This document shows, piece by piece, positions 4,964 to 8,770 of a DNA stretch of 64,000 bases. The stretch comes from Acidobacteriota bacterium (GTDB taxonomy: Bacteria; Acidobacteriota; Terriglobia; Terriglobales; Acidobacteriaceae): assembly GCA_018268755.1 (NCBI GenBank), contig JAFDVW010000003.1:277278-341277 (forward strand), written 5' to 3'. The notes beneath the pieces were generated by a model that saw only the letters and a list, made by a program, of their open reading frames with translations, was not told where the DNA came from and ran no database searches. Within the stretch, counting starts at the first letter, position 1; the number at the start of each line of letters is the position of its first letter. The position numbers were made by a program, and so were the translations under genes.

Positions 4964-5238
4964 AAGGGTGCCTTTCTTTGGCATAAAGAAGGCCGCGGGC
5001 CCGAGGTGGCAGGGGCGGCGGGTCGGGATGCCAAACGCATCAGTATACGCCGCCTCGACAAGTCCGCAGCCCGGGAAGTCTTATCTGGTGGAGGCGGGTG
5101 GGTAACCTTCCGGCATCAGGGGTTGCCTGTAAGGGAAAAATTTTGCTGCGTGCAATTTCCCGTTGCCTTTTTCCTGCGAGGTGTAGAATCGGCTTAGGAA
5201 GTGAGCTTCACGGGATCCGCACCCGTTTCGAGGCGAGT

Positions 5239-6285
5239 ATGAATGTGCATATCAGTTTCAAAGTCCGAAAAACTCCTGATATCGAAAAAGAAATCCTGCA
5301 CATCACGCAAAAATTGCAAAAGCGGTTGCAAGTCTTCCGGCCCGAACTGGTCCACCTCAAGGGCATTGTGGAGGAGCTTTCTTCGCGCAAGACATTCGCC
5401 GTGACCTTGAATCTGCGGCTGCCTTCAGGACAGATGGCGGCGCAGAAGTCCGCGGCCACGCCCGCCACCGCGCTGCGCGCCGCCTCCGATGATTTATTGC
5501 TGCAGCTCAACAAGCATAAATCGCAATTGCGCAACGCCCATAAGTGGCCGCGTTGGCGCCGCGGGTCCCAGGAGCGTCCGGCCGAAGGCGTGCCCTTTGA
5601 GCAGACCCTGGCTGCCGTGCAAGCGCCCACCATCTCCTCCGACGACATCCGTTCCTACGTGAACGCGAATCTCAGCCGCCTGGAACACTTCGTGGAGGTC
5701 GAGCTTTTGTTTCGGGAGGCGGCCGAGCAGATTCCCGCCAACTCGATCATGAAAGAGGAGATCATTGATGAGGTGATCGCCCGCGCGCTGGAAGAAGGAG
5801 TGGAGAAGCCGGAGCGCCTGGCCCTGGAGCCCTGGTTATATCGCCTGGCCTTGCGTGTGATCGGCGACTTGCCGGATTATGCCGGCGAAGAGGGCCAGGA
5901 AGTCCGCCTGGAGCAAACCTTGCGCAGCGCCAATGCTCCCGCCAGCGATGAAGCCGAACTGCAGTTCCACCAGCCTGACGAGAGCTTTACTGAAGAGTCG
6001 GTCATCGCCGACCGCCGCGCCTCGACCCCGGAGGACATCGCATATTCGGAAGAAATGATTGCGCTGGTGCAATCCGCCATGCACGGAGCCAGCCCCGTGG
6101 AGAAAGAGGCCTTCATCCTGCATGTCATGGAGGGATTTTCTGTCGAAGAGATTTCCGCCATCACCACCCGCTCGGCGGAGGAAATCCTGGGAGCGATTGC
6201 CGCTGCGCGCCGGCGCTTGCGCCAATCCGTCCCTCTGGCCGGACGATTTAAAGGAAAGTTATTGCAGCAAACCGGTAGTGCCTAA
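5239..6285 (+). CDS. RaiA/HPF-like ribosome hibernation domain fused to sigma-70-like C-terminus
   Basis: The 348-residue protein has two parts. Residues 1-105 resemble the ribosome-associated inhibitor A / hibernation promoting factor fold: a strand (NVHISFKV), helix, two strands ending in an LRLPSG turn, and a long basic helix (ALRAASDDLLLQLNKHKSQLR), followed by a Trp/Arg-rich linker. Residues 135-210 are helical with an LEPWLYRLALRVI segment. Residues 285-330 look like sigma-70 region 4: SPVEKEAFILHVMEGFSVEEISAITTRSAEEI followed by an Arg-rich recognition-like helix. The RaiA match is fairly clear; the sigma assignment is weaker because promoter-melting region 2 cannot be shown. The eRF1-like gene starts 25 bases downstream, so the two are probably co-transcribed. 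The frame is open back to 5098, but the RaiA fold starts at 5239. Confidence 0.78.
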   Translation: MNVHISFKVRKTPDIEKEILHITQKLQKRLQVFRPELVHLKGIVEELSSRKTFAVTLNLRLPSGQMAAQKSAATPATALRAASDDLLLQLNKHKSQLRNAHKWPRWRRGSQERPAEGVPFEQTLAAVQAPTISSDDIRSYVNANLSRLEHFVEVELLFREAAEQIPANSIMKEEIIDEVIARALEEGVEKPERLALEPWLYRLALRVIGDLPDYAGEEGQEVRLEQTLRSANAPASDEAELQFHQPDESFTEESVIADRRASTPEDIAYSEEMIALVQSAMHGASPVEKEAFILHVMEGFSVEEISAITTRSAEEILGAIAAARRRLRQSVPLAGRFKGKLLQQTGSA

Positions 6286-6310
6286 CTACACATCTCAGCC
6301 GCAGGAGTCC

Positions 6311-7489
6311 ATGCCTATGATTACTCGCGAAGATATCCGCGAACTGGCGCTATTTCAAGCACGAAACGGCGACGGCTGCGCTCTCAGTTTCTATTTTCAG
6401 CCCCATACTCCGCAGGACAAATCGCATCGCGGAGAAGCCATTCTGGCCAAAGACCTGGTGCGCGAGGCCCTGCAACAGGCGGAAAAAGAAGGGAAGCAGG
6501 AGCAAGTGCGCCAGGACCTCAGGCGCATCCTGGAGGTTGCCGGCCAGTTGCGTGGCAATCAGGCCAAAGGCAAGGCCATCTTTGCCTGCGGCGGGCGCAG
6601 CTTCTGGCGGGAGTTTGATCTGCCGGCCCAATTGCCCTCGACCTGCCTCACGGTCAATCAGCGCTTCCATCTGAAGCCCCTGGCGCAGCTTCTGGGGTCG
6701 CAGTCGACGCTGGGTGTCATCTTGTTTGACCGGCGGCGTGCCCGCTTCTTTGACTTGCGTCTCGATGAACTGAAGGAGAGGGAAGGGTTGTTTTCCCCGC
6801 TCTCGCGGCGGGGACGAGGCGATGGTTTTGCCGGATACGATGGTGGTCACTCGGAACGCCGGGTGCAGGATGAAGTGCTGCATCACTATAAAGCGCTGGC
6901 CGCGCGTCTGAAGACGGAATCCGACAAGGGCTTGTGGCAGAAGTTTGTATTGGGGGGGCTCGAACGCAACTGGAAAGACCTGGAAGCGTACTTGCCGTCT
7001 ACGCTCAAGCAGAATTTGTTGGGGCATTTTTCTGTGGACCTGCTCACCGAGCCGCTGGAACAAGTGCGCGCCAAAGCGGGACGCCTCATGCAACAGTCTT
7101 TGGACCTTCGCCGCCGGGACATGCTCAGCCAGGTGCTGAGCCGGGCCAAGAGCAACCAGCGGGGCGTCACCGGCCTGCGCCGGGTTTTGAGCGCTCTGGA
7201 GATGGGAGAAGTGCAGTCGCTGGTATTGGGCGAGCATTACAGCGCGCCCGCCGTCGAGTGTGGGCATTGTGGGCACCTCGACTCGCGCAGGATGCCGCAA
7301 TGTCCGGTTTGCGGCCAGACCACGCGCGAATTGCAAGATGTGTGCGAAGCGATTCTACCCATCGCCATTCGCCGCGACATTGAAGTGCTCTATGTGAAAG
7401 ACGATCCCGGCCTCGACCAGGTCGGAAATATCGGCGCGCTATTACGCTATCGCTCGGAACACACCAGGGGAGCTCGCGCCGCGTCGTAA
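6311..7489 (+). CDS. eRF1-like peptide release factor family protein (baeRF type)
   Basis: The 392-residue protein matches the bacterial/archaeal eRF1-like families found by comparative genomics. Residues 1-125 form an N-terminal domain. Residues 132-210 correspond to the catalytic-domain fold, with a glycine-rich loop and GGHSERRVQ at 178-186 where classical factors have GGQ. Residues 215-392 form a domain-3-like fold with a zinc ribbon (Cys317, Cys320, Cys331, Cys334) and the typical C-terminal GNIGALLRY. Such proteins are thought to act on peptidyl-tRNA in stalled or hibernating ribosomes. The RaiA-like gene just upstream supports a ribosome-linked role. Start 6311 has CAGGAG just upstream; 6317 is an alternative. 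Hydrolase activity is inference. Confidence 0.82.
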   Translation: MPMITREDIRELALFQARNGDGCALSFYFQPHTPQDKSHRGEAILAKDLVREALQQAEKEGKQEQVRQDLRRILEVAGQLRGNQAKGKAIFACGGRSFWREFDLPAQLPSTCLTVNQRFHLKPLAQLLGSQSTLGVILFDRRRARFFDLRLDELKEREGLFSPLSRRGRGDGFAGYDGGHSERRVQDEVLHHYKALAARLKTESDKGLWQKFVLGGLERNWKDLEAYLPSTLKQNLLGHFSVDLLTEPLEQVRAKAGRLMQQSLDLRRRDMLSQVLSRAKSNQRGVTGLRRVLSALEMGEVQSLVLGEHYSAPAVECGHCGHLDSRRMPQCPVCGQTTRELQDVCEAILPIAIRRDIEVLYVKDDPGLDQVGNIGALLRYRSEHTRGARAAS

Positions 7490-7585
7490 GCGGGGTGCAT
7501 GGAATCCAGCAACTCAAACCAGGGGACACTTTTGTGCGCGTGATATCCTCATTCTTTTTTGCATATCTCAAATGAGGAGCAAGGC

Positions 7586-8770
7586 ATGTCCTTTTCACGC
7601 CGCGATTTCTTGACTACGGCTGTAGTGGGATCGGTGTCTCTCGGCTTGCAGCCGGAAGCGAGCGCCCAGTCGGGCGGAGGCAAACGCCCGATTATCGTTT
7701 GCGCGGGCAATGGCTACGATTACCTGGAAGAGGCCTACACCTTCCTCAAGAATGGCGGCGACACCCTCGACGCCGCGCTCAAAGTGGTCAAAGGACCGGA
7801 GGACGACCCCAACGAAACCAGCGTGGGCCTGGGGGGTATTCCCAATGAAGAGGGCGTGGTCGAACTGGACGCTTGCTGCATGCATGGTCCTACGCGGCGC
7901 GCGGGTTCGGTGGGCGGCGTGCGCAACATCAAAAATGTTTCGCTGGTTGCCAAGGCAGTCATGGAACACACCGGCCATGTGATGCTGGTGGGAGAAGGCG
8001 CGGAACGGTTTGCCGTCGCCATGGGCTTCCCGCGGGAAAATCTATTGACCGAAAAAGCCCGCAAGATTTGGCTGTTGTGGAAGGAGTATCACTCGATCGG
8101 CGATTGGTGGGGACCAGGAATTTCAGACCCCAAGTGGAATGCGCCGGTGAAGGGAACTCCGCAGGCGCAACTTTGGCAAATAAAATATCAGAGGCTGGAG
8201 GAGATTGCCGCCAATCTGGGCATTGACCCGGAGTGGCGCGCTTCCGCGATTCACAAAGTGCTGTTTCCGCCCACCGGCACCATTCACTGCTCGGCGGCCA
8301 ACGAAAAAGGCGAAGTTTCCGGCTGCACCACTACCAGCGGCCTGGCTTATAAATTGCCGGGACGCGTGGGCGATTCGCCGATCATCGGCGCGGGCTGCTA
8401 CACCGACCAGGATGTGGGTTCGGCGGGCGCGACCGGTAGCGGCGAAGAGAACATCAAGATCGCCGGGGCACACACCATCGTGGAGAATATGCGGCACGGC
8501 ATGTCCCCGCAGGAGGCCGGGATGGACGCGCTCAAGCGCATTGTGCGCAACTACAACAACGACATGAGCAAGCTGCAATACATGGACATGACTTACTACA
8601 TCCTGCGTAAGGATGGAGCTTATGCCGGCGTTTCCTTATGGGACGGCTATAGCGAGCATGAGCCGCACAAGATTGCGGTGCATGATGGAACTCGCCGCGC
8701 CGAGAAGACAGTAGCGTTGATGAAAGGATATTCGCAGGACTATCCCCCAGCGCTGGGTTTGCCCAAGTAA
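7586..8770 (+). CDS. Tat-exported N4-glycosylasparaginase / isoaspartyl peptidase family
   Basis: A 394-residue Ntn-hydrolase of the asparaginase-2 family. Residues 1-28 form a twin-arginine leader (SRRDFL, hydrophobic core, AQS), so it is probably exported folded. The new N-terminus after autocleavage is predicted at Thr232. The downstream CTTTSG (247-252) and GRVGDSPIIGAG stretches match the bacterial aspartylglucosaminidase pattern, and GATGSGE follows. The residue before Thr232 is Gly, where the classical enzyme has Asp; Gly-Thr scissile bonds do occur in the isoaspartyl-peptidase branch. The start at 7586 has GAGGAG upstream. Substrate (glycoasparagine, isoaspartyl peptide or asparagine) is uncertain. 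Confidence 0.9.
   Translation: MSFSRRDFLTTAVVGSVSLGLQPEASAQSGGGKRPIIVCAGNGYDYLEEAYTFLKNGGDTLDAALKVVKGPEDDPNETSVGLGGIPNEEGVVELDACCMHGPTRRAGSVGGVRNIKNVSLVAKAVMEHTGHVMLVGEGAERFAVAMGFPRENLLTEKARKIWLLWKEYHSIGDWWGPGISDPKWNAPVKGTPQAQLWQIKYQRLEEIAANLGIDPEWRASAIHKVLFPPTGTIHCSAANEKGEVSGCTTTSGLAYKLPGRVGDSPIIGAGCYTDQDVGSAGATGSGEENIKIAGAHTIVENMRHGMSPQEAGMDALKRIVRNYNNDMSKLQYMDMTYYILRKDGAYAGVSLWDGYSEHEPHKIAVHDGTRRAEKTVALMKGYSQDYPPALGLPK

Follow-up and report, generated by a model that had tools for sequence, protein, structure and literature searches.

A RaiA domain fused to a probable sigma factor mimic and encoded beside a Balon-like hibernation factor

Introduction

Bacteria entering dormancy must halt protein and RNA synthesis in step. 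The couplings known so far depend on ppGpp or on distinct factors, among them RMF and Rsd. Genes for baeRF/Balon proteins adjoining HPF/RaiA genes have already been published (PMC6514570, PMC10901736). Balon and RaiA have been seen together on Psychrobacter ribosomes, and "alternative sigma70 factors" are listed among the operon neighbors of Balon (PMC10901736). In archaea, HibA combines RaiA and a CBS module in one fusion protein (PMC13324472). Among sigma factors, the PhyR/NepR partner switch is established, and ECF sigma factors with regulatory extensions are common (PMC8999054).

Here we describe a gene pair from a 64,000-nucleotide stretch of an Acidobacteriota genome (the whole stretch analyzed, termed the window). 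The neighborhood of RaiA and Balon is known; what is new is the covalent attachment of a probable sigma mimic to RaiA. We found no description of a RaiA-sigma fusion in the literature searched (supplements and most subscription papers were beyond reach) or in the tLST papers searched. Like HibA, the fusion ties RaiA to a second module in one presumed hibernation protein; unlike HibA, it is bacterial, and its second module is sigma derived and C-terminal, whereas that of HibA is N-terminal. Its first 105 residues resemble RaiA/HPF factors, but the protein has a sigma-like module and no long-HPF dimerization domain. It has the sigma2-sigma4 order of ECF sigma factors and PhyR; unlike PhyR, it carries a RaiA domain in place of a receiver domain, which Pfam did not detect in the window protein or the relatives tested. 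Neither a NepR-like gene nor a conserved small anti-sigma gene was noticed beside the fusion in the neighborhoods examined.

Results and discussion

Domain composition of the fusion protein

The fusion gene (5239..6285; 348 amino acids), delineated by its open reading frame, Pfam, TIGR02937, and a family alignment and profile, is followed after a gap of 25 bp by a gene on the same strand (6311..7489; 392 amino acids) that Pfam, NCBIfam, and a PDB profile match identify as a baeRF family 10/Balon-like ribosome hibernation factor. All features reported here lie on the + strand. These coordinates and lengths agree with the initial annotation, which had proposed a RaiA-like N terminus (residues 1 to 105), a sigma region 4-like C terminus, and a 392-residue eRF1-like neighbor with a zinc ribbon. 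Each of these elements was recovered by the profile searches and alignments described below. The account of the C terminus was incomplete, however: the sigma4 assignment is borne out by TIGR02937 and by the matches of relatives, but a sigma2-like part had been missed.

The RaiA/HPF (S30AE) domain (5239..5553; residues 1 to 105) is matched by Pfam Ribosomal_S30AE over residues 21 to 98 (E = 3.3e-7; 31.4 bits, above the curated cutoff of 23.7), and the same model matches 33/35 relatives. Its K/R-H-K motif (residues 92 to 94) is conserved, and ribosome binding is predicted by analogy with the family. A family profile built from 35 sequences (alignment A1) matched solved ECF sigma factors in the PDB at E = 1.3e-10 over residues 169 to 330; because this match spans sigma2 as well as sigma4, a sigma2-like part is present too. 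The same profile matched RaiA/HPF chains at E = 2e-4. The sigma2-like part (5641..5883; residues 135 to 215) is covered by TIGR02937 from residue 154 and by the PDB profile from residue 169. It is followed by a strongly conserved linker motif (5959..6012; residues 241 to 258), common to most fusions, with the family consensus F-x-QPDE-x-L-x-x-ED-x-I-x-D. The sigma4-like part (6025..6231; residues 263 to 331) is marked by Pfam, TIGR02937, the PDB profile, and the Pfam matches of relatives. Sigma70_r4_2 reaches E = 4e-4 in the window fusion, below its cutoff, and matches 29/35 relatives.

The fold assignments rest on sequence profiles because the single-sequence structure predictions were poor (mean pLDDT of 48.6 for the full fusion and 47.3 for its sigma half). 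Foldseek searches with both of these low-confidence models returned sigma factors among the top matches. The RaiA part was modeled as E-H-E-E-H, with most of the domain below a pLDDT of 50.

All 57 fusion sequences aligned have retained the two-domain architecture, the most divergent of them sharing ∼21% identity with the window protein; judged from these alignments, such conservation is far beyond chance. Pairwise distances computed for the RaiA and sigma halves rise together (Mantel r = 0.89, n = 55, 0/2000 permutations), as expected if the fusion is inherited as one protein. In a RaiA tree with modest support and long branches, the fused RaiAs and two unfused relatives (L073 and L074) branch apart from the host's other S30AE proteins. 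The host genome has five S30AE matches in total; two further S30AE proteins (L002 and L003; G000:C4:124238-126821), of ∼140 amino acids each, are encoded <3 kb apart on opposite strands.

The Balon-like hibernation factor

Pfam baeRF_family10 (PF18854) matches the downstream protein at E = 1.1e-16 (61.9 bits; cutoff, 27.1), and a profile of its family (alignment A2, 17 sequences) matched the solved Balon MSMEG_1130 at E = 1.2e-13 over positions 5 to 376 of 388. With Balon of Psychrobacter, Rv2629, MSMEG_1130, and baeRF proteins, it shares near-full-length homology, the absence of GGQ and NIKS, and a RaiA domain as neighbor. In contrast, it belongs to family 10 and falls well short of the equivalog cutoffs of the three named hibernation factor families in NCBIfam (48.5 versus 480, 37.6 versus 320, and 35 versus 330); by these scores, it is a relative and not a member of the three named families. 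It also differs from Balon, Rv2629, and MSMEG_1130 in its CxxC...CxxC zinc ribbon (7259..7312; Cys317, Cys320, Cys331, and Cys334, invariant in 17 sequences) and in the GGH (6842..6850; residues 178 to 180) found approximately where aeRF1 has its GGQ catalytic loop. Across the family alignment, this place is occupied by GGH or AGH, with G179 and H180 nearly invariant in the 17 sequences; NIKS is absent from the window protein.

Lacking GGQ, a Balon-like factor is expected to block ribosomes that are idle, not to clear those that have stalled. The initial suggestion that the pair might clear stalled ribosomes therefore needs amending, although the link that it drew between hibernation, a sigma-like module, and a release factor fold is real and conserved. 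An asparaginase-like gene, recognized by reading the sequence, lies 3' of the Balon-like gene (positions 7559-8770 of the window), and its family occurs near the fusion in 14/40 loci.

Distribution within the phylum

Within the host's family, the fusion is present in 23/37 genomes, 17 of which also have the Balon-like gene; in all 17, this gene lies directly downstream of the fusion, at gaps of 12 to 58 bp. No full Balon-like gene was found in the 14 family genomes without the fusion, one of which (G019) gave a weak partial baeRF match. With G019 left out and shared ancestry ignored, the Balon-like gene is present/absent in 17/6 genomes with the fusion versus 0/13 without it (Fisher P = 1.3e-5). 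In the sister family, 13/14 genomes carry the fusion and 0/14 carry the Balon-like gene. Phylum-wide, a match was obtained in 16/247 sampled genomes, 11 of them outside the family (one, G279, interrupted by a contig end), and the stretches surrounding the fusion in these 11 contain no Balon-like gene. The worry that the two genes might not be neighbors in relatives is thus refuted within the family, but outside it the fusion mostly occurs without an adjoining Balon. The absence of Balon next door in the sister family and in most distant relatives indicates that the fusion is more widespread as a unit than the pair. In G056, another member of the class, a baeRF gene truncated by the end of the contig lies 111 bp after the fusion; G059 has an unfused RaiA of 122 amino acids adjoining a baeRF gene.

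Several further observations were made at these loci. In the sister family, the gene after the fusion often encodes a LysM/SLT lytic transglycosylase, as seen in 13 of the loci compared (e.g., L045 6933-8657 and L054 2496-4616). Some sister-family loci (L045 4982-5821) have, immediately 5' of the fusion, a gene of an uncharacterized protein family without a Pfam hit at E ≤ 0.01; in G059, a member of this family precedes the unfused RaiA-Balon pair (L073 4974-5978). Two candidates from the scan of genome contigs were rejected as relatives: L006 is a HAD-type protein, and L007 is an ordinary ECF sigma factor. In their two genomes, the family profile gave matches to the sigma part only, none covering the RaiA part. 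No relatives were found among the viral contigs searched.

Fusions in proteobacterial stress islands

By tblastn, the same architecture was found on plasmids of Alphaproteobacteria (Roseomonas, Paracoccus, Shinella, Caulobacter, Methylorubrum extorquens AM1, and Sphingomonas) and of Cupriavidus, Paraburkholderia, and Burkholderia. On these matches, the fusion spans at least two phyla, the host phylum and the alpha- and betaproteobacterial members of Proteobacteria. Pfam detected both the S30AE and sigma4 parts in 5/5 plasmid fusions tested, several under curated cutoffs. Where annotated, the proteobacterial genes are named only "sigma-70 family," "FliA," "sigma-28," "sigma factor-like," or "hypothetical"; genes in stress resistance islands that bear the labels "sigma-70 family," "FliA," or "hypothetical" can now be reannotated as RaiA fusions that are probably not ordinary sigma factors.

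The alphaproteobacterial fusion sits in heat resistance islands with ClpK, FtsH, Hsp20, HdeD, and YfdX. In Roseomonas, Paracoccus, and Shinella, the order is Hsp20-MarR-FtsH-AAA-fusion, then HdeD, with one other gene between fusion and HdeD in Roseomonas; in Caulobacter, it is AAA-fusion-HdeD. The closest model to the Shinella AAA protein is ClpK (1605 bits; strict cutoff, 1900). YfdX genes occur near the fusion in Sphingomonas and M. extorquens AM1. In Burkholderiales, the fusion is flanked by three Hsp20 genes on one side and by GroES-GroEL-DnaK on the other. On alphaproteobacterial plasmids, the fusion has an AAA/ClpK-type gene before it, ftsH and hsp20 farther upstream, and hdeD after it, an arrangement that resembles the tLST/locus of heat resistance; the window locus, in contrast, is no such island. 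Some of the "alternative sigma70" genes beside Balon, and some sigma-like genes in heat resistance islands, may be RaiA-sigma fusions. The island variant with the fusion between the AAA/ClpK-type gene and hdeD was seen at L164 (1-11242), L163, L162, L165, L166, and L167.

Loss of promoter-reading residues in the sigma-like half

The 57 fusion sequences were compared with 22 real ECF sigma factors of the same genome. The mean net charge of the 12-residue recognition helix stretch is +2.05 in the 22 real ECFs. In the fusions, it is +0.11 for the order together with G056, -1.4 for distant members of the phylum, and -2.0 for Proteobacteria, a difference with a Mann-Whitney P of 1.7e-8 when sequences are treated as independent (relatedness uncorrected). 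A position at which 95% of the real ECFs have a basic residue has one in 11%, 0%, and 0% of the sequences in these three fusion groups. In the window protein, the corresponding stretch (AEEILGAIAAAR; 6175..6210; residues 313 to 324) is without the basic residues of true ECF sigma factors, which we take to be the equivalents of R173 and R176 in E. coli sigmaE numbering. A region 2.2 Gln is found in 20/22 real ECFs (manual count); 52/57 fusions have Asp instead (Asp177 in the window protein). The fusion thus has neither the basic recognition helix nor the region 2.2 Gln expected of an ECF sigma factor. The acidic region 2.2 surface (E174, D177, and E178), by comparison, is strongly conserved.

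In established sigma factors, those basic residues touch -35 DNA, and region 2.2 touches the beta' clamp helices. The loss of the basic residues and the region 2.2 Gln, together with retention of the acidic surface, indicates that the fusion probably carries a sigma mimic and not an active sigma factor. Promoter reading has probably been lost while a sigma-type interface survives, and the sigma-like half is unlikely to function as a conventional sigma factor. The earlier idea that the pair reports to transcription may hold in outline but is unlikely to rest on conventional sigma factor activity. Weak DNA binding may persist, as some relatives score above the ECF cutoff and in 69% of the order's fusions the recognition helix still has its first basic residue.

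A proposed link between idle ribosomes and transcription

From the observed domains, their conservation, the gene neighborhoods, and the loss of recognition residues, we propose that the two genes form a stress-linked ribosome hibernation cassette in which RaiA carries a promoter-blind sigma mimic that docks on a sigma partner and so couples transcription to parked ribosomes; we put the probability of this reading at about one-half. On idle ribosomes, the Balon-like protein would fill the A site and the fusion's RaiA domain the 30S mRNA channel, the two binding together by analogy with Psychrobacter Balon and RaiA. The mimic would be an ECF-derived sigma2-linker-sigma4 module, blind to promoters, that retains the acidic region 2.2 surface and the family linker. 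Its putative docking partner would most likely be one that normally sees sigma factors, either the RNA polymerase core or an anti-sigma factor. We slightly favor the core because the fusion is found in widely differing genomes and on plasmids, with no conserved small partner gene. Shutdown or tethering of transcription would then be coupled to parked ribosomes, or a stress sigma factor would be freed.

A competing explanation, which we consider somewhat unlikely, is a decoy of the PhyR type, in which the sigma-like half would bind an anti-sigma factor and free a stress sigma factor, with the RaiA half sensing or reporting ribosome idleness. PhyR_sigma-like matches the window fusion at E = 4e-4 (20.5 bits, under the cutoff of 27) and 27/35 relatives at E ≤ 0.001; PhyR_sigma2 matches L170, and PhyR chains are among the PDB matches of the family profile. 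The sigma-like domain of PhyR has also lost its DNA contacts in a comparable way. The PhyR/NepR switch supplies an established precedent (PMC8999054), but ECF models outscore PhyR models for most fusion members tested, no receiver domain was detected, no conserved small anti-sigma gene was noticed in the neighborhoods examined, and the groups that carry the fusion differ greatly in their anti-sigma sets.

It is unlikely that the sigma-derived helical module has instead been repurposed for ribosome contact or dimerization, unrelated to transcription, in the manner of the long HPF C-terminal domain or the CBS module of HibA. RaiA joined to another ribosome-contacting module is known from HibA (PMC13324472), the DNA contact residues are lost, and the proteobacterial neighbors are proteostasis genes. 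Strong conservation of the acidic region 2.2 surface and the sigma2-sigma4 linker speaks against this reading and suggests that sigma-type interfaces remain in use.

An active ECF sigma factor controlled by its N-terminal RaiA domain, off when ribosome bound and on when released, is improbable. TIGR02937 (sigma70-ECF) does match most of the sigma part (residues 154 to 329; E = 2.6e-8; 33.7 bits, under the cutoff of 42.9), two of the relatives tested exceed that cutoff (L147 and L164), and regulatory extensions are common among ECF sigma factors (PMC8999054). We nevertheless set this reading low because of the lost R173 and R176 equivalents and region 2.2 Gln, which accompany a near-neutral or acidic recognition helix. 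The operon's promoter also gives no sign of ECF autoregulation: a conserved extended -10 element of the housekeeping sigma70 type (GGTGTAGAAT; 5180..5189) precedes the gene, and GGTGTANAAT or a close variant is found 35 to 94 nt before the ATG in 22/22 family fusion loci compared, which speaks for housekeeping sigma70 control. Coincidental juxtaposition of two unrelated genes has next to no chance of being correct, since the occurrence of the fusion elsewhere without Balon is outweighed by the 17/17 adjacency, the co-occurrence (P = 1.3e-5), and the published RaiA-Balon association, and it is already refuted within the family.

A broader form of the proposed ribosome-transcription coupling, offered tentatively, makes the fusion a widespread hibernation factor that joins idle ribosomes to transcription. 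RaiA would park the ribosome, the promoter-blind mimic would hold RNA polymerase or strip an anti-sigma factor, and one molecule would silence or reprogram both. If true, the presence of a ribosome-parking domain and a sigma-type docking module in one protein would link translation and transcription directly and physically. The coupling idea is testable in genetically tractable carriers, such as M. extorquens AM1.

The 5' leader

The 5' leader (5190..5238) had no Rfam match, and RNAalifold gave no consensus structure or covariation-supported hairpin on the alignment made. Single-sequence folds suggest that ACGGG...CCCGT may form a hairpin, with an outer stem that would involve GAGGC immediately before the start codon. 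In several relatives, GCTTC in the leader can pair with this GAGGC, and the resulting hairpin could hide the ribosome site.
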